64,000 nucleotides of DNA, taken from NCBI RefSeq assembly GCF_019598945.1, contig NZ_CP080598.1:3038001-3102000 (forward strand), in the 5' to 3' direction. The notes beneath the pieces are model-generated. The model searched no databases. It saw nothing but the letters and a program-made list of their open reading frames with translations, and was not told where the DNA came from. Of the stretch, positions 4,677-23,277 are shown in pieces. The stretch is from Sphaerospermopsis torques-reginae ITEP-024. Lineage in GTDB: Bacteria > Cyanobacteriota > Cyanobacteriia > Cyanobacteriales > Nostocaceae. Within the stretch, counting starts at the first letter, position 1. Each line of letters begins with the position of its first letter. The position numbers were made by a program, and so were the translations under genes.

Positions 4677-4707
4677 AGTTTAGAGGTTGGGGATATATTA
4701 CATTAAA

Positions 4708-5136
4708 TTAACTCATACTAAATGAGAATTTCAGTTTAGATATTCCACTAGAATTTAAACGTTGTGTAAGAATATTTACTACTTCAGTATAAGACATATT
4801 ATCTTTTGTCCCAAATGGAATATCTGTTTTCCATTTTCCATTTAAAGTCACACTAATTTTAGATGGTTTTAAAGTAGTTCTAGCAGAAACAAAATATTTA
4901 TCTATGTAACCTTCATTTGGTTGAAGTTCTACTTTGATAAAGTCTGACAAATATTCTTCCAGTAATAACCAAAAAGCTTTATCTGCTTGAACTTTCAAAT
5001 AAACTGCTTCGTAAGGAAAGTTATCCAAATCATTTTTTTGATTAATTAGACCTTTATTACCGTATATAATCTGAGAATAATGACCTGGTTTTCTTAAATC
5101 TCCATATAAAAAAGGTTTAATGTAAACTGTCATCAT
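4708..5136 (-). CDS. hypothetical protein, partner of nucleotidyltransferase-like gene
   Basis: I do not recognise this 142-residue protein. It begins with two adjacent ATG codons (5136 and 5133) and is rich in beta-strand-forming residues (MTVYIKPFLYGDLR, ISVTLNGKWKTDIPFG). It has no signal peptide or membrane segment. It sits immediately upstream of the nucleotidyltransferase-fold gene in a likely two-gene operon, so it may be its partner or regulator. Base composition is as AT-rich as its neighbours. Confidence 0.55.
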   Translation of the reverse strand: MMTVYIKPFLYGDLRKPGHYSQIIYGNKGLINQKNDLDNFPYEAVYLKVQADKAFWLLLEEYLSDFIKVELQPNEGYIDKYFVSARTTLKPSKISVTLNGKWKTDIPFGTKDNMSYTEVVNILTQRLNSSGISKLKFSFSMS

Positions 5137-5686
5137 TCTATCTGAATTATTATCAATATAGTTATTGTCAGTTGGTATTTTTGCTAAATATTTATTAACT
5201 TGATACTTATTTATATCAATCCCAATTTTGAAAAAATAATCGCAGCAACACTAAAAAATCTCTTAAACTCTCTTACCTTTGTGTCCTTTGCGTCCTTTGC
5301 GGTTCAATCATATCAAGCCTTGGATCATTTTTACCGTTAGATCAAAATAAATTTACACATTTGGGATGCTCCCGATTTTTATAGGATAGCTTGGAGGGTG
5401 ACGATATCAGACAATTTTTATAAAACTTCATTGATATGTATATGTAAATATATTTTAACAATTAGCATCATATTTTTGTTGAATTTATTTTGTATATATG
5501 GTAATAATATATAAAAATGATATACATAATATATTCAGAATCATGCCAGTAATGAAAATACCTTATCCTACCTACCAGAGACTTTAAGTCTTAGCTATTT
5601 CCTTTAAAGATACTCCTGTTTCATTCATAGAATGAATATAGATAGATATAGATTGCAATGACTTAGGATTTATAAGGATAAAAATT
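5137..5686. other. gene-free stretch with dispersed repeats
   Basis: No convincing gene lies here. At 5240-5310 there is a tract of TTTGCGTCC-like words (the common AAGGACGCAAAGG repeat in reverse). At 5353-5373 the word TTACACATTTGGGATGCTCCC-like repeat occurs, whose reverse complement recurs at 51602-51622. The rest (5400-5680) is very AT-rich and probably holds the promoter of the toxin-antitoxin pair. Confidence 0.5.
5353..5373 (-). repeat. copy of dispersed GGGAGCATCCCAAATGTG repeat
   Basis: These 21 bases are an exact reverse complement of 51602-51622. In both places a TTGTCTGATATC word lies nearby in the same relative orientation, so the shared element is longer than the 21-base core. 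It looks like the end of a dispersed or mobile repeat; the family is not known to me. Confidence 0.6.
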
Positions 5687-5938
5687 ATGACTACCAAGGA
5701 ATTACTACTACGAGAAATTGATTCAATGTCAGAAATACAACTTATCGAAACACTGAATATCATCCGATCAATTAAGCAAAAAGAGTCTAAATTTTTCCAT
5801 GAAAATAAGAATACAGAAGAAACAGAAAACTGGGAAAAATTTTCTTTAAATAACTTAAATAAATGTTATGCAGAAAATGAACCAGAATATACATTAGAAT
5901 CAATCAAAGAATATAACCCAGATTATGAAAGAAGGTAA
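5687..5938 (+). CDS. probable antitoxin of PemK/MazF-type pair
   Basis: This acidic 83-residue protein overlaps the start of the MazF-like toxin gene by 14 bases, the usual antitoxin-first arrangement of a type II pair. The N-terminal half is helical (ELLLREIDSMSEIQLIETLNIIRSIK). The C-terminal half is acidic and unstructured-looking (ENEPEYTLESIKEYNPDYE), as expected of an antitoxin tail that binds the toxin. No clear DNA-binding fold can be assigned. The call rests mainly on gene order and composition. Confidence 0.7.
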   Translation: MTTKELLLREIDSMSEIQLIETLNIIRSIKQKESKFFHENKNTEETENWEKFSLNNLNKCYAENEPEYTLESIKEYNPDYERR

Positions 5939-6338
5939 TATTATATTAACTCCTATTCCTCAAGCAAATGGAGAAATAAAAAACCGTCCGGCTTTAATTT
6001 TGCGAGAAATGCCAAAGTATCAAGATTTTTTGGTATGTGGAATTAGTACCCAATTAAAACAATATATTGCTGAGTTCGATGAAATAGTTTCACCTGGTGA
6101 TGGTGATGATGATTTTCAATCTAGTGGTTTAGTTAGTCCGTCTGTAATTAGATTGAGTTTCTTAACAGTTATTACTCGTAACAATATAATTGGCTCAATT
6201 GGCACAATTTCCACAGAAAGACACAAACGATTATTACATAATCTGAGTCAATATTTAATTAAATCCAGAGATGAATCTAGAAAAAATTATATCACATTGT
6301 CTGAAAAATATTCTGCACCATTTTCTTCTCAGATTTAG
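5925..6338 (+). CDS. type II toxin, PemK/MazF family
   Basis: The 137-residue protein has the PemK/MazF plan. An opening GNIILTPIPQANGEIKNRPALIL gives the beta-barrel core with the conserved K-x-RPALIL segment. SGLVSPSVIRLSFLTVI then resembles the conserved L-x-x-S-V-I-x-x region, and a final ERHKRLLHNL helix follows. Family members are sequence-specific ribonucleases that cut mRNA. Translation is coupled to the upstream antitoxin through the 14-base overlap. The last 15 residues run 47 bases into the convergent aldo/keto reductase gene, an unusual tail-to-tail overlap. Confidence 0.8.
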   Translation: MKEGNIILTPIPQANGEIKNRPALILREMPKYQDFLVCGISTQLKQYIAEFDEIVSPGDGDDDFQSSGLVSPSVIRLSFLTVITRNNIIGSIGTISTERHKRLLHNLSQYLIKSRDESRKNYITLSEKYSAPFSSQI

Positions 6339-7272
6339 CCGCAGCACTATCTAATTCTGCAACTTCAGCATCACTCAATAACCAACCCAAAGCACCTATA
6401 TTTTGTTCTGCTTGTTCTAAATTCTTCGCCCCAGGAATAGGAATTGCACCTTTACAAATACACCAGTTAATTGCAACTTGGGACATGGTTCTATTTCTCT
6501 GATTTGCTATTTCTCGCAAAGTTCCTAAAACTCCCTGAATACCTGGTAAGATTTGTTTAAATAAAAACCCTCTCACACCTTTAGGAAATTTACCATTTTC
6601 GGAAAACTTACCTGTTAATAAACCTAAAGCTAAAGGACTATAAGCAATGAGTTTAATTCCCAAATCATCACATACATCTTTTAAACCTAATTCTGTCACT
6701 GGATAGGTAGATAAAAGTGAATATTGAACCTGTAAAGTTTTAATAGGAATACCCCTTTCCTGGAATCTTTTATGTACCCATAATAATCTTTTTGTACCGT
6801 AATTAGATAATCCTACACCTTTAACTAAACCTTGTTCATATAAATCAGCTAACCCATCTAATAAACCTACTTCTTGCCAAGGTGCATAATTTGCAGTTGA
6901 CCAGTGCATCTGCACTAAATCAACGTTTTTTCCTAATCTTTTTGTAGAAGCATGACAAGCAGAAATAATTGATTTTCTCGTCCATCTCCAAGGATAAGCT
7001 GCTAATTTTGTCGCAATACAAATATTTTCTTGATTTAATCCTTGATATTCTCTGGTAAACTTACCTAAAAGTGACTCACTACGTCCATTTAATCTTCCTG
7101 TACCATAGGAGTCTCCTGTATCAAACAGGGTGACACCATTACTCACACAGAGATTAAATACCTGTTGTAATTGGTCATCCATGCTTTCATTGTATCCCCA
7201 CAGGAGTTGATTACCCCAAGCCCATGTTCCACATCCCATGCTCGGTAAGGATAATGTTTGGTTAGTTTGCAT
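6292..7272 (-). CDS. aldo/keto reductase
   Basis: This 326-residue NADPH-dependent oxidoreductase of the TIM-barrel AKR family shows the catalytic tetrad: Asp and Tyr in LFDTGDSYGTG, Lys in IATKLAAYPW and His in VQMHWS. The cofactor end is IPIPGAKNLEQAEQN. It resembles the second reductase at 47991-48935 (shared G-T-W-A-W-G-xx-L-xW opening and similar end), so the two are paralogues. The substrate is not predictable. The ATG start is followed by the strongly conserved SLPSMGCGTWAWGNQLLW opening. Confidence 0.9.
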   Translation of the reverse strand: MQTNQTLSLPSMGCGTWAWGNQLLWGYNESMDDQLQQVFNLCVSNGVTLFDTGDSYGTGRLNGRSESLLGKFTREYQGLNQENICIATKLAAYPWRWTRKSIISACHASTKRLGKNVDLVQMHWSTANYAPWQEVGLLDGLADLYEQGLVKGVGLSNYGTKRLLWVHKRFQERGIPIKTLQVQYSLLSTYPVTELGLKDVCDDLGIKLIAYSPLALGLLTGKFSENGKFPKGVRGFLFKQILPGIQGVLGTLREIANQRNRTMSQVAINWCICKGAIPIPGAKNLEQAEQNIGALGWLLSDAEVAELDSAAAKSEKKMVQNIFQTM

Positions 7273-7506
7273 ATTGCTTTCCTATAAAAATTATGATGTT
7301 AGCATTTTATTATACCTAAATTGGATTTAGGCAGCTTAAACAATAAAATACTAAATTCGTTTCTTGTCACTTGCCAAATTATTTGACCACTTGACAAATT
7401 AATGTCTACAAAAATATTAACCTCTAAACCCTTACTGTGTAAGTGTTTTGTTATTGTAACCTATCTTTAGCCAGTAAAACAATAATTGACAAAATAACTG
7501 TCCTGT
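7273..7506. other. AT-rich gap without gene
   Basis: The stretch upstream of the aldo/keto reductase holds two copies of a TTGACAAATTAAT-like word (7385 and 7540 region) and short AT-rich tracts. It probably contains the reductase promoter. No coding signal or strong hairpin is seen. Confidence 0.4.
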
Positions 7507-7806
7507 ATGAGAAATCCCTATTTTCCAAATTTTTCACTTGACAAATTAATCTCCTCCGATACTGAACTATCCGCAAGTGATAAAGAAGTATTGGAATTAA
7601 TCCAAAAACTACTTGAACCGTGGGATACCTTCGGTAAGATTCTCTAACGCAAAACCTACAGAGAAAGACAAACAGAGGTAGCAGGTAATGAGTTAACGCC
7701 CACTGGTTTGGGTACAGCGGCGGGAATTGCTGGTGCTGTTGCAACGTGGGAGAAGTTTCGTTTTAATCCCCTCCTTCCCGGCAACAAATCGCTTACTATT
7801 TTCTAG
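7507..7806 (+). pseudogene. possible gene remnant with one in-frame stop
   Basis: From the ATG at 7507 one frame reads a protein-like sequence (LSASDKEVLELIQKLLEPWDTF), hits a TAA at 7645-7647, then continues to a TAG at 7804-7806. After the stop it reads TEVAGNELTPTGLGTAAGIAG and VATWEKF. The residue mix on both sides looks like real protein, and the reverse strand reads only low-quality hydrophobic sequence. I do not recognise the family. A single CAA-to-TAA change would join the two halves. This could still be chance. Confidence 0.4.
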
Positions 7807-7936
7807 TATCATATTAACCACAATATTGGTTTTAATTCATGACATTATTTGCAAGTTTTTGATATCAATGATATAATACAATTGTGGGTGAACGTCGGCT
7901 TCATGCCGTGTGTTTAAGTGGCTTGTCTATTTAAAC

Positions 7937-8758
7937 CTAGCCCACAAACCATTTCAGTTTATCTAGTGATAGCGGGTTAGAATCAGTATACCACTCTCCA
8001 TAGTTCTTATTTCGCCGATCATCTAAATCCATAATCATCCTGTATTTTTGAGCAAGTGGAATAAAATATTTATCTTCATGGCGTTCATATAATCTTTGTA
8101 AAGCCCATAAATAGTAATCAACAACTTGCAATCCAGCATAATCTGATGGGTAAGCTGGTTTAATAATAGTTGTACTATCGGAAGAGATTTTCCATTTAGT
8201 TTCAAAATTTCTTTTTGCTTGATTTATAGCTTGTTGTAGTGCTTCTTCCCGCGCAGTTTTACCACGTCTAGCAAAAACGATATGATTAATGTTGGCTTTA
8301 TGTAATCTCTCTTTAAATAGTCGTTTTACTAGATCATCATATATATCATCTTGATTGGTCTTTTTGCTTAAAGTTTCATAAGTTTTTTGAGTAGCTACTG
8401 CTAATTCTGCTTTGTATCTGATAGCTACATACATTTTAATTTCAAAGGTTTGCATGAGTTTAAATACTTCCTTTCTGACATCTTGATGATCGTCTTTTGC
8501 ATGAAAGGTAATTGCTGTTTTGTTGGCTGAAGGTTGCATTGAAGGAATGTCTTTATAGCGCGGATCAGCACAAAGTTGTTTTCTGAGTTCTGCGAGTTCT
8601 AATGTTACTTGTTCTGGATGAAAAATTTGGGCTACACCTACCATAAAAAATTTAGATGCGCCCGGTGTTCCTACTATAATTCTGCCTTTTCTGTCAAAAA
8701 ATGTTAAGTCTCCTGCTTCGTCAACAAAGTAATGATTAGTTTTTTCTTGTTCTGTCAT
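7937..8758 (-). CDS. DUF3800 domain-containing protein
   Basis: The 273-residue protein opens with HYFVDEAGDLTFFDRKG, the conserved D-E-(A/S)-G-x strand of the DUF3800 family, which has an RNase H-like fold. A conserved aspartate follows late, in SDYAGLQVVDYYLWALQR. The family is frequent in prophages and defence islands, and its enzymatic role is unproven. It lies 143 bases downstream of the 954-residue nuclease-SSB fusion gene on the same strand, so the two may form one transcription unit. The ATG start is clear. Confidence 0.85.
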   Translation of the reverse strand: MTEQEKTNHYFVDEAGDLTFFDRKGRIIVGTPGASKFFMVGVAQIFHPEQVTLELAELRKQLCADPRYKDIPSMQPSANKTAITFHAKDDHQDVRKEVFKLMQTFEIKMYVAIRYKAELAVATQKTYETLSKKTNQDDIYDDLVKRLFKERLHKANINHIVFARRGKTAREEALQQAINQAKRNFETKWKISSDSTTIIKPAYPSDYAGLQVVDYYLWALQRLYERHEDKYFIPLAQKYRMIMDLDDRRNKNYGEWYTDSNPLSLDKLKWFVG

Positions 8759-8901
8759 GTGGTTTAGATAAGGTTACTCAAGTGATTTTTAGATAATTTT
8801 AACAAAGGTTGTAGAAAATAAAACTTTTGGTTGAATCAAGTTTTTGAATTTTCTTGATATTAAGTTGGATAGGTAGGTTGATCAGAATAAATTATTAATA
8901 T

Positions 8902-11766
8902 TCACCAATCATTAAGATTGTATTGCTGATTTCGTTTTTTATCTAATAAATATAATTGTTCTACCTGAATTACAGGTTTAGAACGATGAGCTTCTGTTTT
9001 ATCATCTATCCATGTATCAAAAATCAAAGCTCCTTGAATGGCAATTTGACTACCTTTGTGTACATCATTAGCTGCAATTTCCGCAGTCTTTCCCCAAATC
9101 CTTAAAGTAAACCAATCAGGTTCATTATCATTTTTATTACGACGGTTCACAGCTAAAGATAAATTACATCTTATTTTGCCATCTTCAAAATGTTTAACGT
9201 CTGGCTCTTGACCTGCTCTACCCACTAAATTGACGACATTCAAACCGAGAATATCTACACTTTTTTGGTTGTCTTCAGTCCTTTTCTTGTATTCAGAACA
9301 ATCTTTTTGACAGCATTTGCATTTGGGACAAATTAGATACTTACAAGTATCACTCTTACATATATTATTTTTACCAGGTTCTTCATTCCTGATAATATGA
9401 GGATATCCACATTTACCACAATAGGCTAAAATTTTTGTTTTCTCATTACTTCCTAATTTTGTTCCTTGTAATAATCCTCTACCTTGAAAATGGAATATTA
9501 CAAACTCATTTAATTTCAGATTTTCTCTGCGACTATATAAAATATTCAAAGTTTTACAAAAATTTATAATTGTTGGTGATTTTTCAGGAAAATTAGGATG
9601 TTGATCTTTAACAGGATCATATATTTTCAAAGGATGTGGATTTTCATTGTGATTTTTGTGAGTATATAAAATTTCTAAATATTTTAGAGGATCATAATCT
9701 TGATTGTTGCCACCGCTACCAATCATACTCAGAAAATGTCTGAGTATAGCTAAAAATATATGAGGTAATTTAATTCTTTGAGATTTAATAATAAGAATAC
9801 TATCAATAAATTTGCATTCCCATTCAGATAATTTTTGTCTCCAGTTATTAGGTAATTCTCTTTGAGTAGCAAGAAATAAAGGTAAAGCATTATATTGATT
9901 TTCTATTAAGTTAAATTTTTGATAGTCTTCATATTCATTATATGATGGTATTTCCTCATTAGTTAAGTTTCTAAATTCTTCGATGATATTTATTTGGTTA
10001 ACATAAAAATCGTCATCATAATCAAATAACCAGTGAGGATAATAAGGATTATCTTCTTCATGAACTTCATTAATAATATTAATACTTGCTGGAGTTTCCC
10101 CTGAAAACAATTTTTTGTTAAGTTCACTAATATATTCTTTAAGTTCCTTAATATCACTTTTATCAAAAGTTCCCAGTATCTTAATTTGCTCAGAATTGCA
10201 AATATATTGATTTTGTTTTTCTTTTTCTATAGCTTGTATAATATCATTTTTTGTGATGTTTTGATTTTGAGGTTTTTTAGCTAAATCAGCCTTGATGTTT
10301 TGTTCTAATTCTATTTTTTGTTCCTCATTCAATTTATTCGCACAGTACCATATTATATGTATATATTTCTTGGACTTCTTGGATTGATAATCATTCTGAT
10401 ATATAAGAGGGGAAAGAACTCCTATAATTTTAATATCTTGTTCACGATATTCCTTTAATTTTCTAACACAAAATGAGGAGTAAACCTTTGAACTTTGAGA
10501 TGATCTAGCATTTTTAACATCTAAATATATAGGTTGTTTTTCTTTTGTGATTCTAATATCATATTTTTTCCAATCTCCACCATCAGGATGTTCAACTTGT
10601 TTAATCGAAATATCTTCTACATCATATCCAATAGATCCATAGTAGTTTGCTACTAACTTTTCAGCACCACGAGCAGCAACCATTTGTACAAATTCATTAT
10701 CATTATTTTTGACTATCCATTTTTTAATCAATTCTTGTTCATCTTGATTTAAAGAATATAATTCTTGCCAATTACCACATATTTTATGTTCGTCAGGATA
10801 ACCAGATTCTGCAAATTTCTTAACCAGAACGAAGAATTTTTGATATCTTTTCTCTATCTTTTTATGCTTATATTTTTCTGGTGCTACATCCCATAAATAT
10901 CCTTTATATTCTAAGTTTGCTGATAGATATTCAATCTTATTCCAATAATTATCAATTAATTTTTCATCATTCTTATTCATTTTATCTATTAATTCTTCTA
11001 CAATTTCATCTTTTAATTTTTTATCCAAGTCATTAATATATTGATTAACTAACTCAGGATATTCTTGCAAGTTTCTTAAATAGTATCTCAAGTCAGTATA
11101 CTTGATGTATATAGAAGGAATTTTCTGTGCTAATTCTTGTCTAAGTTGAATACTTATACTTACAGATGTCAATAATGTTTTGTTGTCAATGATTTTTGAT
11201 TCTATTTCCTCTAATGAGAGAATATTTAGGTTTATGTGGGCAATGAGACTTTTTATGAAAATAGTAGGATTATTACTGGTTATGTAGTCACATATAGTAT
11301 TTTCATCTTCTATTTTATCAATTAATATTGCTTCACATCTATTATTATTTCTTACTCCAAATGAAACAATATCATCTAACTTTAACTGAGAATGATAATT
11401 GTTTCTAAAATCAATTAGAGAATCATCTTCACATTTAATTTTACTGTCAAAAGTATAATTTTTATTTATTTTATCAACTGTTCCAATATACCTAGATAAT
11501 TGTACATTAATGGCTTCTGACTTACCATCTTTTAACTCAAATTGAATATAAATACGTTCTCCATTTTTTTTATCTTGTTTTAGATAATCTAAAAACTGTT
11601 GGTCAATAATATTTTCCTCATGAAAATAATAACCTTGTTCATACTTTTCATACTTGGACATTTTTGAAAAACTGTCTATATCTTCAGGTCTGACAATAAA
11701 GCCATAATTTTTACCATGACTACCGAACCAATGAATAAAACTTGTATATATCTGCTTAGTTTCCAT
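8902..11766 (-). CDS. multidomain protein: cold-shock-like N-terminus, PD-(D/E)XK core, Cys cluster, SSB domain
   Basis: This 954-residue protein combines parts that seldom occur together. Residues 1-50 resemble a cold-shock motif (KNYGFIV then YYFHEENI), and about 90-150 may be a second OB-like unit. Residues 360-450 carry a DUF3883-like restriction-endonuclease core with E369, D403 (KYDIRI) and D416-V-K418 (YLDVKNAR) in PD-(D/E)XK spacing. Cysteines at 783, 786, 803, 808, 813, 816, 818, 819 and 823 look like zinc ribbons. Residues 838-942 are a single-stranded-DNA-binding OB fold (VNLVGRAGQEPDVKHF, CNLSLAVNRR, WFTLRIWGKTAEIA). I infer a nuclease that binds single-stranded nucleic acid, possibly in phage defence. 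Translation starts at an ATG. Confidence 0.8.
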   Translation of the reverse strand: METKQIYTSFIHWFGSHGKNYGFIVRPEDIDSFSKMSKYEKYEQGYYFHEENIIDQQFLDYLKQDKKNGERIYIQFELKDGKSEAINVQLSRYIGTVDKINKNYTFDSKIKCEDDSLIDFRNNYHSQLKLDDIVSFGVRNNNRCEAILIDKIEDENTICDYITSNNPTIFIKSLIAHINLNILSLEEIESKIIDNKTLLTSVSISIQLRQELAQKIPSIYIKYTDLRYYLRNLQEYPELVNQYINDLDKKLKDEIVEELIDKMNKNDEKLIDNYWNKIEYLSANLEYKGYLWDVAPEKYKHKKIEKRYQKFFVLVKKFAESGYPDEHKICGNWQELYSLNQDEQELIKKWIVKNNDNEFVQMVAARGAEKLVANYYGSIGYDVEDISIKQVEHPDGGDWKKYDIRITKEKQPIYLDVKNARSSQSSKVYSSFCVRKLKEYREQDIKIIGVLSPLIYQNDYQSKKSKKYIHIIWYCANKLNEEQKIELEQNIKADLAKKPQNQNITKNDIIQAIEKEKQNQYICNSEQIKILGTFDKSDIKELKEYISELNKKLFSGETPASINIINEVHEEDNPYYPHWLFDYDDDFYVNQINIIEEFRNLTNEEIPSYNEYEDYQKFNLIENQYNALPLFLATQRELPNNWRQKLSEWECKFIDSILIIKSQRIKLPHIFLAILRHFLSMIGSGGNNQDYDPLKYLEILYTHKNHNENPHPLKIYDPVKDQHPNFPEKSPTIINFCKTLNILYSRRENLKLNEFVIFHFQGRGLLQGTKLGSNEKTKILAYCGKCGYPHIIRNEEPGKNNICKSDTCKYLICPKCKCCQKDCSEYKKRTEDNQKSVDILGLNVVNLVGRAGQEPDVKHFEDGKIRCNLSLAVNRRNKNDNEPDWFTLRIWGKTAEIAANDVHKGSQIAIQGALIFDTWIDDKTEAHRSKPVIQVEQLYLLDKKRNQQYNLNDW

Positions 11767-12271
11767 ATTAATTAGTAGGTTGATTGTAATAGTAAGTACC
11801 TTATTAGTTTACCAAGAAGTGTATAAAATGCAGATAATAAATAATAAATTTTACTGAATTATACATTTGTACACAAAATATTAAGTTAATTAATTATAGC
11901 TATTTATTGTACTTATCATATTTTTAGCTTAACCGCCAACTGCTGATAAATAACATCTAACCACACAGGAATAACAGATTTACCTTCATCTAGGGATGCG
12001 TTAGCGAAACTTACCGTAGGTATTGCCATATCGCTATCAAACTCTACCAAAGAAAGGGAATCATCCTGAGATAACAAGAACATAAACCGCTTCCCCCTAC
12101 CGGAAATAAACAACTCCGGTTCTTGTTCCTTTTACTAATACAAATTGGTAAACATCCAGAAATTGAAACCTGGTGACAAAAACGTAAACACCTTACAACT
12201 TTCGTTTTGTCAAGGCAGACAAACAATTTGGCAAGTGACATCGTTTCTATAGGTGTTTACTTACATAAAAA
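11767..12271. other. gap holding a probable gene remnant
   Basis: The first 150 bases are AT-rich and probably hold the promoter of the 954-residue gene. The rest contains a minus-strand protein-like piece described separately, followed by the tRNA gene. No other feature is seen. Confidence 0.4.
11916..12113 (-). pseudogene. possible C-terminal remnant of an unknown gene
   Basis: A minus-strand frame reads a protein-like 65 residues (DDSLSLVEFDSDMAIPTVSF, then EGKSVIPVWLDVIYQQLAVK). The only starts are a TTG at 12113 or an ATG at 12083, and a different frame (12044-12241) is open just upstream. That pattern would fit an older, longer gene broken by a frameshift and deletion. The family is unknown to me, and a real short gene cannot be excluded. 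Confidence 0.3.
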
Positions 12272-12343
12272 AGCCAGCAGTCAGGATTGAACTGACGACC
12301 TTCCGATTACAAGTCGGATGCACTACCGCTGTGCTATGCTGGC
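12272..12343 (-). tRNA. tRNA-Thr (anticodon TGT)
   Basis: Read on the minus strand, a complete 72-nt cloverleaf folds. The acceptor stem GCCAGCA pairs with TGCTGGC, the D-arm is GCAC/GTGC, and the anticodon stem is TCCGA/TCGGA around the loop CTTGTAA. The variable loop has 5 nt, and the T-arm GTCAG/CTGAC surrounds TTCAATC. The anticodon TGT reads ACA and other ACN codons. The discriminator base is T and CCA is not encoded. It stands alone, upstream of argF on the opposite strand. Confidence 0.97.
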
Positions 12344-12619
12344 GTGTTTTGGTGTGTTGGAGCTTTTGAATCGCCCACCCCACCGACTTCTAATAATAGC
12401 ATAAACCAGAAATTTGTCTAGTAGTTTTCAGAAAAAAATTTTTTTCTGAGTTTATCCATTTAATCAATCCAAAATCCAAAATCCAAAATCTCAAATCCAA
12501 AATCGGACATCCCGTAGATCCAGGTAACAATAATTTGGTACAGTTTTAAGACTGTATACCTGTTGACGCAGTTTATTAAATACACATACACAGATAACTA
12601 TAATATACCAATCATCAGC
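12344..12619. other. gap between tRNA-Thr and argF
   Basis: This contains a short tandem of AATCCAAAATC words (about 12470-12505), a recurring intergenic repeat in this window, followed by AT-rich sequence likely to include the argF promoter. No gene is seen. Confidence 0.4.
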
Positions 12620-13543
12620 ATGGCATCATCATTAGTTGGACGAGATTTATTAGGTTTGGCGGATCTGAGTTCCACAGAACTGCAAGAACTTCTAGAAATG
12701 GCAGCTTTACTCAAGTCACAAAAGCTGACGTTACATTGTAACAAGGTTTTGGGTTTGTTGTTCTCTAAAGCTTCCACCCGCACCAGAGTTAGTTTTACTG
12801 TAGCAATGTATCAACTGGGTGGCCAGGTTATTGATCTTAACCCCAATGTCACCCAAGTGAGTCGGGGTGAACCTGTACAGGATACCGCTAGGGTGTTGGA
12901 TCGTTATTTGGATATCCTCGCTATTAGAACTTTTGCCCAGCAGGAGTTGGAAATTTTTGCTAATTATGCCAAAATTCCCGTAATTAATGCCCTCACAGAT
13001 TTAGAGCATCCTTGTCAGATTTTAGCTGATTTATTAACTATTCAAGAATGTTTTGGCTCTCTGGCAGGTTTAACTCTTACCTATGTGGGGGATGGTAATA
13101 ATGTGGCTAATTCTCTCATGTTGGGTTGTGCTTTGATGGGAATGAATGTGAGAGTAGCTTTTCCTTCAGGATATGCCCCAGATGCGGAAATTGTGGAAAA
13201 AGCTAGGGCGATCGCTGATCATAAAACTGAAGTTATTCTCACCCATGATGCCCAAGCAGCAGCTAAGGGCGCACAGGTTCTTTATACTGATGTTTGGGCA
13301 AGTATGGGACAAGAATCGGAAGCTAATAACCGTCTTCCTATCTTCCAACCTTATCAAATTTCTCAACAATTATTAAGTTTTGCCGATCCCGAAGCAATTG
13401 TTTTACACTGTCTACCCGCCCACCGTGGTGAAGAAATTACCGATGAAGTTATCGAAGGTTCTCAATCAAAAGTTTGGGATCAGGCAGAAAATAGATTACA
13501 CGCCCAAAAAGCTCTACTTGCTAGTATTTTAGAGGTTGTTTGA
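12620..13543 (+). CDS. argF: ornithine carbamoyltransferase
   Basis: This enzyme transfers the carbamoyl group from carbamoyl phosphate to ornithine to make citrulline in arginine synthesis. The carbamoyl-phosphate site SKASTRTRVSF, the HPCQILADLLT motif and the ornithine-side HCLPAHRGEEI motif are all present. I chose the ATG at 12620 (MASSLVGRDLL, 307 residues) because it gives the family's usual length and N-terminus. A TTG at 12563 would add 19 unrelated residues. It is a single gene with no neighbouring arginine genes, and is followed by two strong hairpin repeats. Confidence 0.97.
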   Translation: MASSLVGRDLLGLADLSSTELQELLEMAALLKSQKLTLHCNKVLGLLFSKASTRTRVSFTVAMYQLGGQVIDLNPNVTQVSRGEPVQDTARVLDRYLDILAIRTFAQQELEIFANYAKIPVINALTDLEHPCQILADLLTIQECFGSLAGLTLTYVGDGNNVANSLMLGCALMGMNVRVAFPSGYAPDAEIVEKARAIADHKTEVILTHDAQAAAKGAQVLYTDVWASMGQESEANNRLPIFQPYQISQQLLSFADPEAIVLHCLPAHRGEEITDEVIEGSQSKVWDQAENRLHAQKALLASILEVV

Positions 13544-14848: not shown

Positions 14849-16336
14849 ATGTATTTAACGCGATCGCCAATACAGAAACAAAAACCTCCTGCTTTCTCTC
14901 TCAAGTTACCTTTTGTCAGGGAAAATCAGGGTAGTTATCATGTTCAGTCGTCTTTACCAGGATGTCCAAAAATGCCTGTATCTCTGCATTTGCGGGGATA
15001 TCAGCATCAAGCTATTACTAGCTGGTTTGCTAATAATGGTCGAGGGACTTTAAAAATGGCTACTGGTAGTGGGAAAACGATTACTGCTTTGGCGATCGCC
15101 TGTGAATTGTATAAACAGATAAGTTTACAAGTCTTGTTGGTGGTGTGTCCTTACCGTCATTTGGTTAGTCAATGGGGTAGAGAATGTGAGAAATTTAACT
15201 TACAACCGATTTTGGCTTTCGAGAATTTACGCACTTGGCAAAGTCAACTTTCAATGCAATTATATAATCTGCGTTCCGGTTCTCAAAATTTCGTCACTGT
15301 CATCACCACTAACTCGACTTTAATTAGTGAGGGGTTGCAATCTCAACTTAAATATTTTCCACCTAAAACTTTAATTATTGGTGATGAAGCGCATAATTTA
15401 GGCGCACCCAGGTTAGAAGAAAGTTTACCTCGGAATATTGGGTTACGTCTCGCTTTGTCTGCTACCCCAGAAAGATATTTTGATGATGGGGGTACGGAGT
15501 CTTTATTTGATTATTTTGGTTCTGTTTTACAACCAGAGTTTAGTTTACAGGATGCTATTAATCAAGGGGCTTTAGTCCATTATTTATATTATCCTGTTCT
15601 AGTGGAATTAACGGAATTTGAAAGTATTAATTATTTGAAGTTGACTAAGAGAATAGGGCGATCGCTACAATACAGAGAACGAGAAGAAGGGGATATCGAC
15701 GATTTTGAAGATATTGAAGATATTAAATCTTTATTAATTAAACGTTCTAGGTTAGTAGGTGCAGCAGAAAATAAATTAACTGCTTTAAAAGAATTAATGT
15801 TAAATCGTTTAGATACGAGTCATACATTATTTTATTGCAGCGATGGTTCACAGGAAAGTACACACCGTTCATCTCTGCGTCAACTCAAGGAAGTAGCGAG
15901 AATTTTAGGAGGAGAGTTAGGTTATAAAGTCAGCACCTACACCGCACAGACATCTTTACAAGAACGGGAAATTTTAAGAGAACAATTTGAAAGCGGAAAA
16001 TTACAGGGTTTAGTTGCTATTCGTTGTTTAGATGAAGGTGTGGATATTCCCGCTATTCAAACTGCGGTGATTTTATCAAGTTCTGGGAATCCCCGTCAAT
16101 TTATCCAGCGTCGTGGTAGGGTTTTACGTCCCCATCCTGGGAAGGAGAGAGCGACGATTTTTGATATGATTGTTTTACCTCCTGATTTGGATCGAGAAGC
16201 GATAGAAGTAGAACGCAATTTGTTAAGAAAAGAGTTAAGAAGGTTTGTCGAATTTGCTGATTTAGCTGATAATGCAGGAGAAGCAAGGATGCAATTATTG
16301 AATTTGCAAAAGCGTTACGGTTTATTGGATATATAG
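14849..16336 (+). CDS. DEAD/DEAH helicase, DNA phosphorothioation system restriction protein
   Basis: This superfamily 2 helicase has motif I MATGSGKT, motif II GDEAHN, motif III SATPER and motif VI QRRGRVLR in order across 495 residues. The sequence closely resembles the cyanobacterial proteins named DNA phosphorothioation system restriction protein. It is the first gene of the Dnd island and likely acts in restricting unmodified DNA, since dndF-dndH are absent here. The start is uncertain. The ATG at 14849 follows a TGTCACC repeat, and an ATG at 14972 (MPVSLHLRGYQ) would suffice for the helicase fold. I kept the longer form because SLPGCPKMPVSL looks like genuine protein. Confidence 0.85.
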   Translation: MYLTRSPIQKQKPPAFSLKLPFVRENQGSYHVQSSLPGCPKMPVSLHLRGYQHQAITSWFANNGRGTLKMATGSGKTITALAIACELYKQISLQVLLVVCPYRHLVSQWGRECEKFNLQPILAFENLRTWQSQLSMQLYNLRSGSQNFVTVITTNSTLISEGLQSQLKYFPPKTLIIGDEAHNLGAPRLEESLPRNIGLRLALSATPERYFDDGGTESLFDYFGSVLQPEFSLQDAINQGALVHYLYYPVLVELTEFESINYLKLTKRIGRSLQYREREEGDIDDFEDIEDIKSLLIKRSRLVGAAENKLTALKELMLNRLDTSHTLFYCSDGSQESTHRSSLRQLKEVARILGGELGYKVSTYTAQTSLQEREILREQFESGKLQGLVAIRCLDEGVDIPAIQTAVILSSSGNPRQFIQRRGRVLRPHPGKERATIFDMIVLPPDLDREAIEVERNLLRKELRRFVEFADLADNAGEARMQLLNLQKRYGLLDI

Positions 16337-16864
16337 GGGAATTGGTAATTGGTAATGGGTAATTGGTAATGGGTAATTGGTAATTGGTAAAACGAACCGC
16401 AGAGACGCAGAGGACACAGAGAAAATTCTATCTGTTGTATTATAGATTTATTCCTTTATTTTTCCCTCTTGGGGGGGCGAAAATTGATAGTTGAAGGGTT
16501 GACTCGGCGCTGGGGGCGCGGTATTATTCTAATATAATGGAGTGGTGCTAAAATTTTTAGAGCAAGCTACATCCCATTATTAGAGCTTGTAGATATAATT
16601 CTACCAGGAATAAATAAAAAAAGCAACCCTTTCCAGCCCCAAAATCATAAATTTTTTCTCGATATTTTGCAAACATGAAGGATAAAATTCAATATGATTT
16701 AACTGCAAAGGACGCAAAGGACACAAAGGTAAGAAAAGGTAAGAAAAGGTAAGTATGAAGATAGATCCCCGACTTCTCTAAAAGAGTCGGGGATCTGGAG
16801 TGGTTGTAATGATGCTGACAAAAGTGGTTAAAATAGATGGAAAAGTCTATTTTTACAAACCCTT
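16337..16864. other. gap with ATTGGTAA repeats and a hairpin
   Basis: Heptamer repeats of the AATTGGT type (16338-16390) are followed by an AACCGCAGAGACGCAGAGG word and unique AT-rich sequence. AAGGACGCAAAGG words come next (16706-16750), and then a 12-bp hairpin (16763-16796). No gene is seen. The promoter of the 62-residue gene should lie in the last 70 bases. Confidence 0.55.
16763..16796. repeat. palindromic repeat AGATCCCCGACT...AGTCGGGGATCT
   Basis: A 12-bp perfect stem (16763-16774 with 16785-16796) surrounds a 10-base loop. A related element with the same CTCGACTTCTT...AAGAGTCGAG layout occurs at 55371-55404. It belongs to a dispersed family of imperfect palindromes. Confidence 0.7.
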
Positions 16865-17053
16865 ATGTCCACAGAATCAAATATTGAAGATGTCCAAGCA
16901 CCAATTAATACTGCACCACCGGAAGTAAAACAGATAATAGAGAAAGTTTGTAGGTTAGAAAAATCGAGACTTGCACGGAAAAGCAAAGGTGCAATTAATG
17001 ATGATATTTTAGGAATAATCAAAGAAGCAGTTAAAGAAGTGGTGCAGGAATGA
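16865..17053 (+). CDS. small Dnd-island protein overlapping the SMC-like ATPase
   Basis: This 62-residue protein has an acidic N-terminal half, then a helical part (VKQIIEKVCRLEKSRLARK) and a short second helix (ILGIIKEAVKEVV). Its stop overlaps the start of the next gene as ATGA, so translation is coupled. I do not recognise the family. The tight coupling suggests a small regulator or subunit of the following ATPase. Confidence 0.7.
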   Translation: MSTESNIEDVQAPINTAPPEVKQIIEKVCRLEKSRLARKSKGAINDDILGIIKEAVKEVVQE

Positions 17054-19119
17054 AACTAACATCTATTAAACTTTGTAATTTTCGCTCTTTTTATGGACAG
17101 ACTCCAGAAATTACCATTGCAACTGGAGATATGAAAAATACTACAATTATTCATGGGAATAATGGAGCAGGTAAAACCAGTTTATTAAATGCGTTTACCT
17201 GGGTGTTATATGAAAAATTTACTGCTGCTTTTGCTGCGACAGAACAGTTAGTAAATAAAAGAGCGATCGCCGAAGCAGAAAATGAACAACCTGTAGAATG
17301 TTGGGTAGAAGTTGGTTGGGAACATGAAGGAAACCGATACAGAGCAAAACGCACCTGTCGAGTATATAAAAATCCTACCACAATTGAACCAACAAAAACT
17401 AAATTAACAATTCAAACCGTAGGAGATGATGGTAAATGGTATTTTCCCATTGAACAAGCAGAGGAAATTATCAATAATATATTACCAGCAAGTTTACATC
17501 AATATTTCTTTTTTGATGGAGAAAGAATAGAAGAAATAGTTCGTTCTGACAAAAAAGCAGAAATAGCAGAAGCAACGGAAACATTTTTAGGAGTCAAAGT
17601 CATTGACTTAGCAATTAAACATTTAAAAGAAGCAAAGAAAACCCTAGATAATGAACTTGCTGCTATTGGTGATGCAGAAACCAAACAATTATTGAAAAAA
17701 CAAAATCAGCTAGAACAGGAAATAGAAAGAATCAACAAAAGACAGACAGAAATAAAAAAAGAATTAGAAAATCAACAGACATTTAAAAAAGATGTCAGCA
17801 GTCGGTTAATAGAACTCAGTGCAGTGCGAGAATTACAAGAAAGACGAGAAAGTTTAGAAACTCAAAAACGTAGTAGTTATGAAGAATTGAAAAAAACTAA
17901 AGAAGCACTGAAAAAGATTATTTCCAAACAAGCGTATACAGTATTATTAGGACAAACAACCGCCAATTTTCGGGAAATTATCAGTGAATTAAAACAAAAA
18001 GGAGAATTAAAATCAGGAATTTCTAAAGAATTTGTTGCAGAACTAATTCAAACAGGAAGATGTATTTGTGGAGCAGAATTAAAAGAAGGTGGAAATGGAC
18101 ACTTTCACGTTAAATCACTTTTGAAAAAAACCGGATCTTCCTCTGTAGAAGAAACAGCAATTAGAATGGGAGCGCAAGTTGATGATATTGATAAACAAGC
18201 GGATAATTTTTGGGAGAATGTTAACAGAGAACAAACAAGAATTAGTCAGATCAAAACCTCACTTTCCCAAATAGAAGGGGAGTTAGATAATATTGAAGAA
18301 ATTTTGCGGAAAGATCCCAATGAAGATATTAGCGGTTTACAAAAACGGTTAGATGGAATAGAAGCGAAAATTGATGAATTAAACAGAGAACAAGGTGCAA
18401 ACCAACAAGAAATTTCTCACATTAAAACAGAAGTTGATGTATTAGTCAAACAAATTGCTAAACAAAAACAAAATGAAGGAAGACAGATTTTAGCACAGCG
18501 TCGCATTATTGCAACTCAAGACGCAATTGAAAGATTAATGGAGGTGAAAAGTAGACAAGAAAAACAATTTAGATTACAATTAGAAAAGCGAGTGCAGGAA
18601 ATATTTGCAGAAATTTCTGTGACTCCTTATATTCCCAAAATTACCGAAAAATATGAACTGACTTTAGTTGAGAATACCACAGGAATAGAAGCACCGGTAG
18701 CAGCATCCACAGGAGAAAATCAAATTCTTAGTTTGTCTTTTATTGCGAGTATTATTGATAAAGTGCGGGAGTGGAGTGAGAAGAAAAAAATTATGATGGT
18801 CCCTGATAGTAGCACTTTTCCTATTGTCATGGATTCACCTTTTGGAAGTTTAGACGCTAACTCTCGTCGTCACATTGCACAAACTATTCCTAAATTAGCA
18901 AATCAGTTAGTTGTTTTGGTGACGAAAACGCAATGGAGGGTAGAAGTTGAGGAGGAAATTATTGATAGAATTGGTAAGGAATATGTGTTAACTTATTATT
19001 CTTCTAAACCTGACTGTGAACAGGATTTTATGGAGGTGAATGGGGAGAAATATTATCTGATTCGTCAAAGTCCTAGTGGTTTTGAGTATACTGAAATTAT
19101 GGAGGTGGAAAGGGGTTAA
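17050..19119 (+). CDS. SMC-like AAA ATPase with CxC hook, DndD-related
   Basis: The 689-residue protein has the Rad50/SMC plan. The Walker A motif is GNNGAGKTS (36-44), and YFFFDGERIEEI follows near 152-163. A long coiled coil (190-500) is interrupted by a CIC hook-like motif at 338-340. The ABC-type signature is STGENQILSL (553-562) and Walker B is PIVMDSPFGSLD (591-602). It resembles DndD but is clearly different from the dndD gene at 26443. I infer a DNA-handling ATPase acting with the upstream helicase and small protein in phosphorothioation-linked restriction. It starts with an ATG inside the preceding stop. Confidence 0.82.
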   Translation: MKLTSIKLCNFRSFYGQTPEITIATGDMKNTTIIHGNNGAGKTSLLNAFTWVLYEKFTAAFAATEQLVNKRAIAEAENEQPVECWVEVGWEHEGNRYRAKRTCRVYKNPTTIEPTKTKLTIQTVGDDGKWYFPIEQAEEIINNILPASLHQYFFFDGERIEEIVRSDKKAEIAEATETFLGVKVIDLAIKHLKEAKKTLDNELAAIGDAETKQLLKKQNQLEQEIERINKRQTEIKKELENQQTFKKDVSSRLIELSAVRELQERRESLETQKRSSYEELKKTKEALKKIISKQAYTVLLGQTTANFREIISELKQKGELKSGISKEFVAELIQTGRCICGAELKEGGNGHFHVKSLLKKTGSSSVEETAIRMGAQVDDIDKQADNFWENVNREQTRISQIKTSLSQIEGELDNIEEILRKDPNEDISGLQKRLDGIEAKIDELNREQGANQQEISHIKTEVDVLVKQIAKQKQNEGRQILAQRRIIATQDAIERLMEVKSRQEKQFRLQLEKRVQEIFAEISVTPYIPKITEKYELTLVENTTGIEAPVAASTGENQILSLSFIASIIDKVREWSEKKKIMMVPDSSTFPIVMDSPFGSLDANSRRHIAQTIPKLANQLVVLVTKTQWRVEVEEEIIDRIGKEYVLTYYSSKPDCEQDFMEVNGEKYYLIRQSPSGFEYTEIMEVERG

Positions 19120-19249
19120 TTTTTCTCACGCAGAGTCGCAGAGTCGCAGAGAGAAACCGAAAAATTTATCTGCGTTTATCTGTGTTCATCTGCGTTCTAT
19201 TTTTTATCTCACGCAAAGACGCAAAGGGAAGAACGCAAAGGAGAAAAAA

Positions 19250-19849
19250 ATGGTTGCTGTTTCTGATAGATTTTATATGACTCCCCAAGAGTTTTTAGAG
19301 TGGGAAGTATCACAAGAAATTAAACATGAATATCTGAATGGTGAAGTTATTGCAATGACTGGAGGTACTATTCCTCATGCTGGTATTACTTTAAATTTAG
19401 CTTCAGCTTTGAAAAGTCATTTACGGGGGAGTAAGTGTACTGCTTTGATGTCAGATGCAAAGGTGGGAGTTTCTGAAAATGGACCTTTTTTCTATCCTGA
19501 TGTGGTGGTGAGTTGTCATCCTCAAGATAAACAAGCGATTAAATTTTTGCAATTTCCTTGTTTAATTATTGAGGTGCTTTCTCCGGGTACGGAAGCTTAT
19601 GATCGGGGTAAAAAATTTGAAAAATATCGCAATTTTTCTAGTTTACAGGAATATGTTTTGATTGATTCTCAAAACATCGGTTTAGAATGTTTTCGGTTAA
19701 ATGATCGGGGTTTTTGGGAATTACATCCTTTTGTTGAAGGTGATGAGGTAGTTTTCACAAGTGTTGATTTTCGTTTTCCTTTGTCTTTGGTTTATGAAGA
19801 TGTGGTTTTGGTGGGAGAAAATGAGGAGTTTAAGGATCAAGCAGGTTAA
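19250..19849 (+). CDS. Uma2 family endonuclease
   Basis: This 199-residue member of the cyanobacterial Uma2 (DUF820) family has a PD-(D/E)XK-like fold. Marks are MTPQEFLEWE, KHEYLNGEVIAMTGG, the FYPDVVVSC strand with its aspartate, LIIEVLSPGTEAYDRGKKFEKYR and LQEYVLIDS. The ATG at 19250 follows a good GGAG ribosome site. An open frame further upstream reads through CGCAGAG and CGCAAAG repeats and is not real coding. Uma2 genes are highly multiplied in cyanobacteria and their role is unknown. This copy sits inside the Dnd island. Confidence 0.9.
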   Translation: MVAVSDRFYMTPQEFLEWEVSQEIKHEYLNGEVIAMTGGTIPHAGITLNLASALKSHLRGSKCTALMSDAKVGVSENGPFFYPDVVVSCHPQDKQAIKFLQFPCLIIEVLSPGTEAYDRGKKFEKYRNFSSLQEYVLIDSQNIGLECFRLNDRGFWELHPFVEGDEVVFTSVDFRFPLSLVYEDVVLVGENEEFKDQAG

Positions 19850-20005
19850 TTTTTGATGACAAATATTATCTGCGTCTATCTGTGTTCATCTGCGTTTTAT
19901 TTTTATCTCACGCAAAGACGCAAAGACGCAAAGGGAAGAACGCAAAGGTTTGATTTTAGTTAGTACAATTTGTTGTAGGATATTGGGAGTTGAGATTTTA
20001 AGATT

Positions 20006-20479
20006 ATGGCGGAATCTGGTAGAATTAGGGTGGCTAAGGATAAGGCTGATTTGGTGAAGTCTTTAATTTCTTCTGATGGGGGAAATGGTCCTTTTCAAAC
20101 TTTTGCTGATGTGATTGTTTTTGCTGCTGCTTTGGGTGTTAAGTATAAGAAGCGTGTTCCTTTTGAGGAGGTTTCTAAACGTGAACCTGTACCCATTAGG
20201 ATAGAAACATTTATGTCAATGGGATATGATGTTGTTATTAAATTACTTGGAATAACAGAAACTCAAAATATTCAAATTTTATCACCTAGTGATGAGGAAT
20301 TTGAAAAACAACGTAATGAAATTTTTGAAGAATACGCTAATGGTGGTTTAGAAGTTTTACAAGAACACCTCAGAGGTGCTATTGATTATACAGACCAAAT
20401 TTTATTATTTTTAATATCTGATAAAGACAAGAAAAACGAAGATGACGGAGAATTTGATTTAAGAAAATTCCTAAGTTAG
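20006..20479 (+). CDS. DNA phosphorothioation-associated protein 4
   Basis: The 157-residue protein matches the small Dnd-associated family 4. It opens with RIRVAKDKADLVKSLI, and QTFADVIVFAAALGVKYKKRVPF is its most conserved stretch. The C-terminal half is acidic. Its biochemical job is not known, but the family is found only with dnd clusters. It precedes the SBD-HNH nuclease gene on the same strand with a 40-base gap that carries the palindrome at 20508. Confidence 0.85.
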   Translation: MAESGRIRVAKDKADLVKSLISSDGGNGPFQTFADVIVFAAALGVKYKKRVPFEEVSKREPVPIRIETFMSMGYDVVIKLLGITETQNIQILSPSDEEFEKQRNEIFEEYANGGLEVLQEHLRGAIDYTDQILLFLISDKDKKNEDDGEFDLRKFLS

Positions 20480-20507
20480 AAATTTGCATTTTAATTACAC
20501 TTAACCA

Positions 20508-20519
20508 GTTTTTAAAAAC
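20508..20519. promoter_or_regulatory. palindrome GTTTTTAAAAAC directly before the SBD-HNH gene
   Basis: A perfect 12-bp palindrome ends one base before the ATG of the nuclease gene. The same 12 bases recur at 23343-23354 in the dndB-dndC gap. Sharing of an exact palindrome by two promoter regions of one island suggests a common operator. Confidence 0.5.
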
Positions 20520-21443
20520 ATGAACACTTTATCATTATACTGCCAAAAGTTATCTAATCTCAATGTAAACAACAATAAAAAACGTGGTATTGCTTTACAT
20601 AAACCAATCTTAATTTTATCAGTTATAGATTTAATTAGCAGAGATATTATTGCAAAAAATGAAATTACAGTTTCAGATGAATTAATTGAAACCTTTGACA
20701 AATATTGGCAGATAATAGGATCACATTCTTACACAGGAGGTTTACATTATCCTTTCTTTCATTTACAAAGTGAAGGTTTTTGGCATTTAGAATTTAAACC
20801 TGATTTTAATGGACTGCAACCAAAGACAACCAACAAATTTAAAAAAGCTGTAGAATATGCTTATTTAGATAATGAATTATTTGAGTTTTTACAAAATGAC
20901 ATTACCAGAAAAGAATTACTAGATGCACTAATAGGAGCATTTTTTCCTGATCAAGATAACCAAATAGATAGCATTTTACAAATTAATCAAAATTTTGAAG
21001 ATGAAATTATAATACCTGAGTCTGCTGAAAACATTCCTAAATATAGATTACAAAAAACAATTATTAGAAATGCCTTTTTCAGAAAAGCGGTAGTTTCTGT
21101 ATATAGTTGTCAATGTGCTTTTTGTGGGTTAATGGTTAATAAAAATTTTAGTCAAAATATAGTAGATGGCGCACATATAAAACCATTTTCCCAATTTTAT
21201 GACAGTAGAATACATAACGGTATTGCCCTATGTAAAAATCATCATTGGGCATTTGATAGAGGTTGGTTTGGTGTTGATGAACAATACAAAATTATCGTTA
21301 GTCAAAACTTAGAAGAAATATCTCCCCATGCTAAACCAATAAAAGATTTTCATGGGGAAAAACTCATATTACCTAAAATAGAGAAATACTTTCCAGATAT
21401 TGAAGCTTTACAATGGCATCGTCACAATATTTTTCAATCATAA
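20520..21443 (+). CDS. phosphorothioated-DNA-binding HNH restriction endonuclease (SBD-HNH type)
   Basis: The 307-residue protein has an N-terminal part with the KKRGIALHKPILILSVIDLI segment typical of sulfur-binding domains that grip phosphorothioate DNA. A C-terminal HNH nuclease follows, with CQCAFCG, DGAHIKPFSQF and NGIALCKNHHWAFDRG. Family members (ScoMcrA-like) cut near phosphorothioates. In a host that makes the modification, such an enzyme must be kept in check or must spare the host pattern. It starts at an ATG immediately after the 20508 palindrome. Confidence 0.85.
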   Translation: MNTLSLYCQKLSNLNVNNNKKRGIALHKPILILSVIDLISRDIIAKNEITVSDELIETFDKYWQIIGSHSYTGGLHYPFFHLQSEGFWHLEFKPDFNGLQPKTTNKFKKAVEYAYLDNELFEFLQNDITRKELLDALIGAFFPDQDNQIDSILQINQNFEDEIIIPESAENIPKYRLQKTIIRNAFFRKAVVSVYSCQCAFCGLMVNKNFSQNIVDGAHIKPFSQFYDSRIHNGIALCKNHHWAFDRGWFGVDEQYKIIVSQNLEEISPHAKPIKDFHGEKLILPKIEKYFPDIEALQWHRHNIFQS

Positions 21444-21470
21444 ATATTACATTATAAATATTACATTAAA

Positions 21471-21642: not shown

Positions 21643-21674
21643 GGGTATGTCACCAAACAAGTAAATATTTTTAA

Positions 21675-23270: not shown

Positions 23271-23277
23271 GAAGTCA

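Follow-up and report, generated by a model that had tools for sequence, protein, structure and literature searches.

A predicted nucleic-acid-sensing nuclease carried as cargo by a relic of a type V-K CAST in a cyanobacterium

Introduction

The CnuC proteins of the CoCoNuT systems contain cold-shock domain (CSD)-like OB folds, a PD-(D/E)xK nuclease and a zinc ribbon, in some cases together with HEAT-like helices, and are predicted to act on RNA (PMC11090510; this and the other papers cited are drawn on in part, and statements about them extend to those parts). AbpAB is triggered by single-stranded DNA (ssDNA) covered by single-stranded-DNA-binding protein (SSB) (PMC10732053), and retron Eco8 by a phage SSB (PMC13158370). 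The cargo of Tn7-like elements is rich in defence genes (PMC8649781), Tn7 relatives duplicate 5 bp of their target (PMC11406308), and type V-K CRISPR-associated transposons (CASTs) follow a plan of tRNA gene, left end, cas12k, divergent cvkR, cargo, tniQ and right end (PMC9938897). Here we analyse a protein encoded in a 64,000-nt stretch of the cyanobacterium Sphaerospermopsis torques-reginae ITEP-024 (contig NZ_CP080598.1, 3,038,001 to 3,102,000; the window, to which coordinates without a handle refer). An earlier note, made from the letters alone, had described this 954-residue protein as a nuclease fused to an SSB domain and as a candidate for an undescribed system. To its features we add a second cold-shock fold, a helical arm and the gene's place as cargo in the remains of a type V-K CAST. 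We give roughly even chances to the reading that the protein is a nucleic-acid-sensing nuclease, probably an anti-phage effector, kept as V-K CAST cargo after the transposon died. Interest lies mainly in the nuclease family and where its genes are found; the SSB fusion was seen in one strain.

Results

Domain layout of the protein

The 954-aa open reading frame (ORF) at 8902-11766 proved to be real, and we add its strand, minus; the plus strand in the same frame holds 65 stops. Its parts are as follows:

8902..11766, minus strand: CSD-CSD-helical-nuclease-cysteine cluster-SSB protein, 954 aa (ORF list, model, alignment)
11491..11766, minus strand: cold-shock fold 1, residues 1-92 (model against 4qqb, Z 8.8, rmsd 2.5, 68 aligned)
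11308..11496, minus strand: cold-shock fold 2, residues 91-153 (model against 5jx4, Z 9.4, rmsd 2.1, 61 aligned)
10717..11307, minus strand: helical arm, residues 154-350 (model; tandem copies in some relatives, e.g. L023)
10003..10695, minus strand: predicted PD-(D/E)XK nuclease, residues 358-588, with E369, D403 and D416-x-K418 (alignment and model)
9298..9420, minus strand: zinc-cluster-like region, residues 783-823, eight invariant cysteines (alignment; metal binding assumed, low model confidence)
8914..9246, minus strand: SSB OB-fold tail, residues 841-951 (PF00436, TIGR00621, phrog_44, tree)

An AlphaFold2 model of the whole protein, built from 17 alignment rows, had a mean pLDDT of 71.6, with good confidence at residues 1-420, 530-550 and most of 580-720. 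It places cold-shock folds at residues 1-92 and 91-152, and both Foldseek matches of the whole model at E up to 0.001 were cold-shock proteins. Since the window protein had no match to the Pfam CSD model at E 1, we call these regions CSD-like, by fold. A homologue (L024) matches the CSD model at E 2.5e-5 with 24.5 bits (cut-off 27), and sibling proteins with the same N-terminus exceed that cut-off (L130, 29.3 bits; L125, 39.6 bits); together with the model, these matches uphold the cold-shock-like start proposed earlier. The number of tandem copies of the helical arm, each of about 135-140 aa, differs among relatives (L023:6403-9873 compared with the window gene).

Residues 358-588 of the model resembled I-Ssp6803I (2ost; Z 8.1, rmsd 2.9, 110 aligned), the Holliday-junction resolvase Hjc (1gef; Z 8.0, rmsd 2.6, 100 aligned) and the SPARDA nuclease (Z 7.8). 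A separate model of residues 340-836 again had PD-(D/E)XK neighbours first, at lower Z (6.0 and 5.9), with other PD-(D/E)XK nucleases after them. Taken alone these Z scores are middling, and we make the PD-(D/E)XK assignment because the fold match agrees with the invariant residues: E369, D403, D416 and K418 are identical in 29/29 rows, window counted (26 distinct core sequences), and with D385, N419 and R421 they are unvarying both in the 22 aligned members, window included, and in the 29 rows. The signature E369/D403/D416-x-K418 read off by the earlier note is thus kept by every homologue in the alignment and coincides with the I-Ssp6803I and Hjc matches. By these residues and its core fold the window protein is assigned to the PD-(D/E)XK nuclease superfamily, and metal-dependent cleavage is predicted. 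Nine cysteines cluster at residues 783-823, as had been noted; eight of them (783, 786, 803, 808, 813, 816, 819 and 823) are identical in 29/29 rows, and C818 falls outside the invariant set.

Among Pfam, NCBIfam and PHROGs, SSB was the one clear match of the window protein, and none of the PADLOC models matched it. Weak and seemingly spurious matches were Erf4 in the window protein (17.3 bits, cut-off 29.3), COX_ARM in L023 (24.5 bits, cut-off 23, within its tandem repeats) and Cas6d in L045 (E 0.007). A literature search that covered few subscription papers, and is weak evidence of absence, found no account of the nuclease family or of the SSB fusion. With SSB, weak CSD and spurious-looking matches as the whole yield, the nuclease family is absent from the curated libraries searched, and the earlier word "undescribed" is fair within those libraries.

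A dead type V-K CAST with the nuclease gene as cargo

The nuclease gene lies in an insertion whose features, with those at its edges, are:

7357..7364, plus strand: TCGTTTCT, 8-nt target copy on the right-end side (present once at the empty L086 site)
7365..12240, no strand: relic of a type V-K CAST, 4,876 bp, nuclease gene as cargo (empty site, ends, remnants)
7365..7385, plus strand: right-end terminal inverted repeat TGTCACTTGCCAAATTATTTG (21 nt, 95%)
7687..7790, plus strand: TniQ remnant (71% over 28 aa at 7687-7770; query TniQ PF06527)
7937..8758, minus strand: DUF3800 gene, 273 aa, second cargo gene (PF12686, 1.1e-8; PADLOC DUF3800_VII, 6.7e-21)
11925..12131, minus strand: remnant of CvkR, a MerR-type CAST regulator (78% over 69 columns; query MerR_1 PF13411)
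12132..12206, plus strand: remnant of the Cas12k N-terminus (72% over 25 aa, containing a stop; query NF038191, 962.6 bits)
12220..12240, minus strand: terminal inverted repeat of the left end, 31 bp away from tRNA-Thr (repeat search, end comparison)
12241..12248, plus strand: TCGTTTCT, second 8-nt target copy (duplication comparison)
12272..12343, minus strand: tRNA-Thr(TGT), reading toward the element, likely attachment site (tRNA search)

A genome of the same genus (G386), whose argF-like protein is 97% identical to that of the window, is without 7365-12240: window segments 5791-7364 and 12240-13535 abut there, at L086 positions 6510/6509. Searching four genomes for the end pattern with up to 3 mismatches returned five ends (one match for the backward control), four of them 7-31 bp from a tRNA gene and the fifth being the window's far end. 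One of the five ends bounds a better preserved V-K CAST (L092) in genome G101, which encodes Cas12k (962.6 bits) and TniQ together with a regulator of the MerR type and a TnsB-like fragment; used as queries, proteins of this CAST revealed the three remnants listed above. An end of the G101 CAST agrees with the window repeat at 20/21 nt, and the two right ends are identical at 119/139 positions without a gap. Furthermore, the order and orientation of the parts in the window insertion match the V-K plan as given in PMC9938897. Judged by its ends, its tRNA-side position and its TniQ, CvkR and Cas12k remnants, and so on sequence grounds, the insertion is a dead type V-K CAST. We call it a relic, and a non-working one, because its transposition genes are reduced to fragments. 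The TniQ remnant continues with a further piece of 7 aa in another frame (7770-7790), which has an E-value of only 1.1 of its own, and a search of the host genome with the G101 Cas12k returned the window fragment only. An IS21-like or hAT-like origin, considered for the 8-nt duplication, was dropped in view of the V-K right end and the Cas12k, CvkR and TniQ remnants. The G101 element, for its part, has no duplication at its ends; it occupies L092:6595-17326 at a tRNA-Pro gene, and its cargo is a 1060-aa PglX/MAD2-like protein (matches below cut-off).

The only two ORFs of at least 100 aa inside the insertion are the DUF3800 gene and the nuclease gene, the former on the same strand and 143 bp downstream of the latter. 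The nuclease ORF is uninterrupted while tniQ, cvkR and cas12k are wrecked. Its place inside a CAST could mean that the gene serves the transposon itself, in target choice or end processing, instead of the host. We consider this very improbable: the L092 CAST proteins, compared with 168 sequences, matched the window, the G101 and G426 CAST sites and a short piece in L163, and no locus of another family member. On the same result, CAST cargo as a rule of the family is rejected.

A nuclease family spread over three phyla

Scanning the genome contigs with the single window protein gave no relative; with a seven-row alignment of the first relatives, 17 loci were found, mostly in Cyanobacteriota, the others in Pseudomonas massiliensis, Sulfurimonas, Sulfuricurvum and a Campylobacterales bacterium. 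Family members thus span Cyanobacteriota, Campylobacterota and Pseudomonadota. No relative of the nuclease family was found in the viral contigs searched. The 29-row core alignment consists of the window protein, 20 of the other 21 members of the 22-member set and 8 further loci. L042 was left out, since it nearly duplicates L045 and comes from one isolate with it; three identical pairs (L031/L102, L032/L097 and L036/L095), probably the same genomes in two collections, reduce the rows to the 26 distinct sequences; and L027 and L028 are two copies within one genome. Also excluded were a Synechocystis B12 plasmid copy that is broken into five fragments (L022) and further copies that are broken or partial (e.g. 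G426, G435, G402, G434, G643, G664 and G633). With broken, partial and N-terminal-only matches counted, 16/217 genomes of the family Nostocaceae and 29/388 of its order have one, a sparse and patchy distribution; the one other genome of the host genus is without the nuclease gene.

A gene richer in A+T than its flanks is a common sign of horizontal movement. At 22/22 loci the GC content of the nuclease gene is below that of the flanks, which suggests that these genes have moved horizontally.

An SSB tail seen in one strain

The SSB OB fold at the end of the window protein was confirmed: PF00436 matches residues 843-940 at E 8.8e-20 with 71.2 bits (cut-off 26). The fold is whole and free of stops, and is joined after the last invariant cysteine. 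The earlier note had named joint recurrence of all parts as support for its proposal. The catalytic residues and the cysteines do so across the three phyla; the SSB tail occurs in 1/29 aligned members, the window protein alone, and the other 28 have no room for it. Conserved pairing of SSB and nuclease is therefore rejected, and the joining is, among these members, specific to the window strain, an outcome that the earlier note had itself named as counting against its proposal.

The host, sequenced as a single 5.25-Mb contig, encodes its own SSB elsewhere. The tail is 55% identical to it and lies outside the Nostocaceae SSB clade (support 98/97) in which the host SSB falls, so that a recent copy of the host ssb is rejected as well. 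As far as seen, then, the SSB-nuclease joining appears specific to one strain, neither a shared feature nor a fresh host ssb copy. A serious contender, which we place a little short of even, is that the tail was joined by accidental read-through and has no role, the family working without it and the tail decaying. Its presence in a single member, the long SSB branch and the high divergence all fit such an accident; the full-length, stop-free OB fold with 71 bits on the Pfam SSB model does not, nor does its position outside the Nostocaceae clade, which speaks against a fresh host copy.

One N-terminus, several effectors

Profile searches also matched proteins that share the N-terminus only. A DarT domain follows it in L130 (PF14487, 4.4e-43), where the neighbouring gene encodes a macro domain, and in L131 (5.5e-17), where an ADP-ribosylglycohydrolase is encoded alongside; the genome search alone matched another DarT protein, the third (L129, 2.1e-13). 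Other sharers end in cysteine-rich regions with weak zinc-ribbon matches. A sensor or targeting module would be expected to head toxic ends of differing chemistry in this way, and from these sequences the cold-shock and helical N-terminus looks like an interchangeable sensor. The DarT fusions lie at L130:5455-7455, L131:6993-10047 and L129:219-3756; the neighbour of L129 is of the ADP-ribosylglycohydrolase type, by likeness to L131.

Gene neighbourhoods

The earlier note placed the gene among others of defence type. This is correct in that a Dnd/Pbe-like cluster (PbeA-like helicase, PbeC/DndD, HNH and DndC) lies at 14849-25082; argF-like and LexA-like genes, named by eye, separate it from the nuclease gene. 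Among relatives, one (L025) lies between HmaA and HmaB in a complete HmaABC operon, one (L041) adjoins DruE of Druantia (2297 bits), and at L031 a PADLOC Orf5/HEC-06 protein is the second gene downstream. The broken copy on the Synechocystis B12 plasmid lies near genes annotated DUF3883 and DUF1156. The Hma set was not found among the 10 window proteins scanned with PADLOC. No conserved partner gene was seen in 21 neighbourhoods, and DUF3800 is not repeated there.

Many family members stand alone among ordinary-looking genes. This, the Hjc resolvases among the nearest folds (Z 8.0; 5.9 with the separate model) and the SSB domain would suit a nuclease of DNA repair or recombination with no part in defence. 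We think this unlikely, given the patchy spread, the AT-rich gene at 22/22 loci and the single members that lie in a CAST, within Hma, beside Druantia or in a retron-like operon.

Two observations concern the surroundings. The alignment to G386 ends at 16344, and the remainder of the Dnd/Pbe-like cluster appears to be absent at that locus. On the other side, 4701-5790, which holds a 142-aa ORF, has no match in G386 (140 nt in its place), which gives the region the appearance of a hot spot for insertions.

A relative in a retron-like operon

In genome G366 (L132), a nuclease relative comes third in an operon, behind the genes for a reverse transcriptase (RT; PF00078, 5.7e-23) and a 244-aa protein. 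The best PADLOC models for this RT are RT-type defence proteins (467 bits), and upstream of it lies an RNA of 136 nt that is closed by an 11-nt repeat. A 32-nt core motif of this RNA (up to 6 mismatches) precedes 12/17 such RTs including L132, a count made without a control. The closing repeat beats 60/60 shuffles at 2/17 loci only (L132 and L152); at the others up to 16/60 shuffles reach it, and two loci have none, so that the closing repeat alone is convincing for few loci. A relative of the 244-aa or of a 297-aa accessory protein was present at 8/16 other RT loci, and at 6/16 a gene further down encodes a protein of about 684-690 aa whose start is P-loop-like (by eye). At the 16 other loci, no match to the nuclease family lay within four ORFs of the RT. 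The effector slot of this retron-like family looks swappable. The cyanobacterial family (L132:5946-10461 and L152-L167) comprises an upstream RNA motif, an RT of about 370 aa, an accessory protein and a variable further gene.

On these grounds the window protein could be the effector of a retron-like system, in need of a complex of RT and multicopy single-stranded DNA (msDNA) supplied from elsewhere in the genome; we hold this to be quite unlikely. Besides the operon of G366, the DUF3800 cargo partner points that way, matching the PADLOC model DUF3800_VII, which we take to belong to a retron type. PF00078 has no match in the window and two in the host genome outside it, so that a partner in trans is possible; one of the two is of the L132 type (L161:9040-10131, on G000:C1) and is split by a stop, the second match lying at G000:C1:4880910-4881551. 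Against the proposal stand the missing RT of the window, this split gene and the 0/16 count, set beside which is a broken nuclease copy in G185 some 11 kb from an RT. In G324 the accessory homologue alone precedes the nuclease gene, near a contig end, and a related RT lies on another contig. A retron as the rule of the family is rejected, L132 alone among the family loci having an L132-type RT.

Discussion

We prefer the reading of the window protein as a sensing nuclease of anti-phage type because of the invariant catalytic residues and cysteines, the nuclease and cold-shock folds, its patchy spread, the low GC of the gene, the Hma, Druantia and retron-like settings, its place as CAST cargo and the N-terminus shared with DarT proteins. 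In the proposed mechanism, the cold-shock domains would bind single-stranded RNA or DNA produced in infection and the helical arm would act as a lever that relays binding to the nuclease, whose predicted toxic output would be to cut DNA or RNA and so end phage growth or the cell. The SSB tail might add a second, DNA-specific grip, by which the enzyme could collect on the ssDNA of phage replication forks with no need of an RT/msDNA complex or other partner. Sensing of single-stranded nucleic acid followed by cutting is thus plausible as a prediction.

Several findings weigh against this reading of the protein and its element. Model confidence is low for the cysteine region and the SSB tail and patchy at residues 422-572, and one row only covers the SSB tail in the AlphaFold2 input alignment. 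The window core is divergent (end branch 1.25) and the branch of the SSB tail is long (1.11, median 0.15), which together make partial decay possible. In most of the 21 neighbourhoods no obvious defence gene was seen, a count in which only some of the neighbours were scanned with a library. Of the CAST, tnsB and tnsC are gone, with fragments of TniQ, CvkR and Cas12k remaining; the anchor spacer was not found, no exact word of at least 11 nt being shared between the element and the 180 bp outside its left end; and the target duplication TCGTTTCT is 8 nt where 5 bp would be expected.

More tentatively, and with some doubt, the data can be drawn together as an undescribed modular defence superfamily of cyanobacteria in which a tandem cold-shock and helical-arm sensor would be joined to interchangeable effectors (PD-(D/E)XK nuclease with cysteine cluster, DarT ADP-ribosyltransferase or cysteine-rich forms) and would occur alone, as the swappable third gene in a family of retrons, within Hma or as CAST cargo; the window copy would then be a one-protein ssDNA alarm that bypasses in-trans SSB sensing by means of its own SSB. 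If our interpretation is right, there exists a multi-phylum family of sensor nucleases that the searched curated libraries do not hold, one sensor module serves chemically different toxic effectors, and the window offers a concrete case of CAST cargo retained after transposon death. The SSB fusion makes it testable whether SSB-coated ssDNA alone suffices to activate a defence nuclease.

Comparison with known systems

The element shares with the type V-K CAST (PMC9938897) its right end (119/139 nt with G101), a tRNA gene toward the left end and the series cas12k-cvkR-cargo-tniQ, and differs from it in its destroyed transposition genes, the 8-nt instead of 5-nt duplication and the anchor spacer not found. 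For the protein, the closest published mix, within the parts of PMC11090510 drawn on, is that of CoCoNuT CnuC, which likewise combines CSD, PD-(D/E)xK and zinc ribbon; unlike CoCoNuT, the window protein has no DUF2357 or McrB-type GTPase (Pfam, E 1), is a single protein and has another domain order. To the cold-shock effectors of retrons (NF038236, retron Se72; PADLOC CSD_V) family members are weakly alike (E 0.0001 to 0.09), and one relative has an RT and a retron-like RNA encoded with it, whereas the window has no RT and its protein is a large nuclease rather than a lone CSD. The DarT toxins L130 and L131, and more weakly L129, share the cold-shock and helical N-terminus by profile, but they carry a DarT ADP-ribosyltransferase at the C-terminus and have an antitoxin-like gene next to them. 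Hma and Druantia are each the setting of a single relative, L025 within HmaABC and L041 next to DruE, whereas the window gene is seen with neither, and the nuclease family is not among the components that PADLOC names for these two systems. Finally, in AbpAB and Eco8, as far as the cited parts of those accounts go, SSB is a phage trigger acting in trans, whereas here an SSB domain is part of the predicted nuclease itself.

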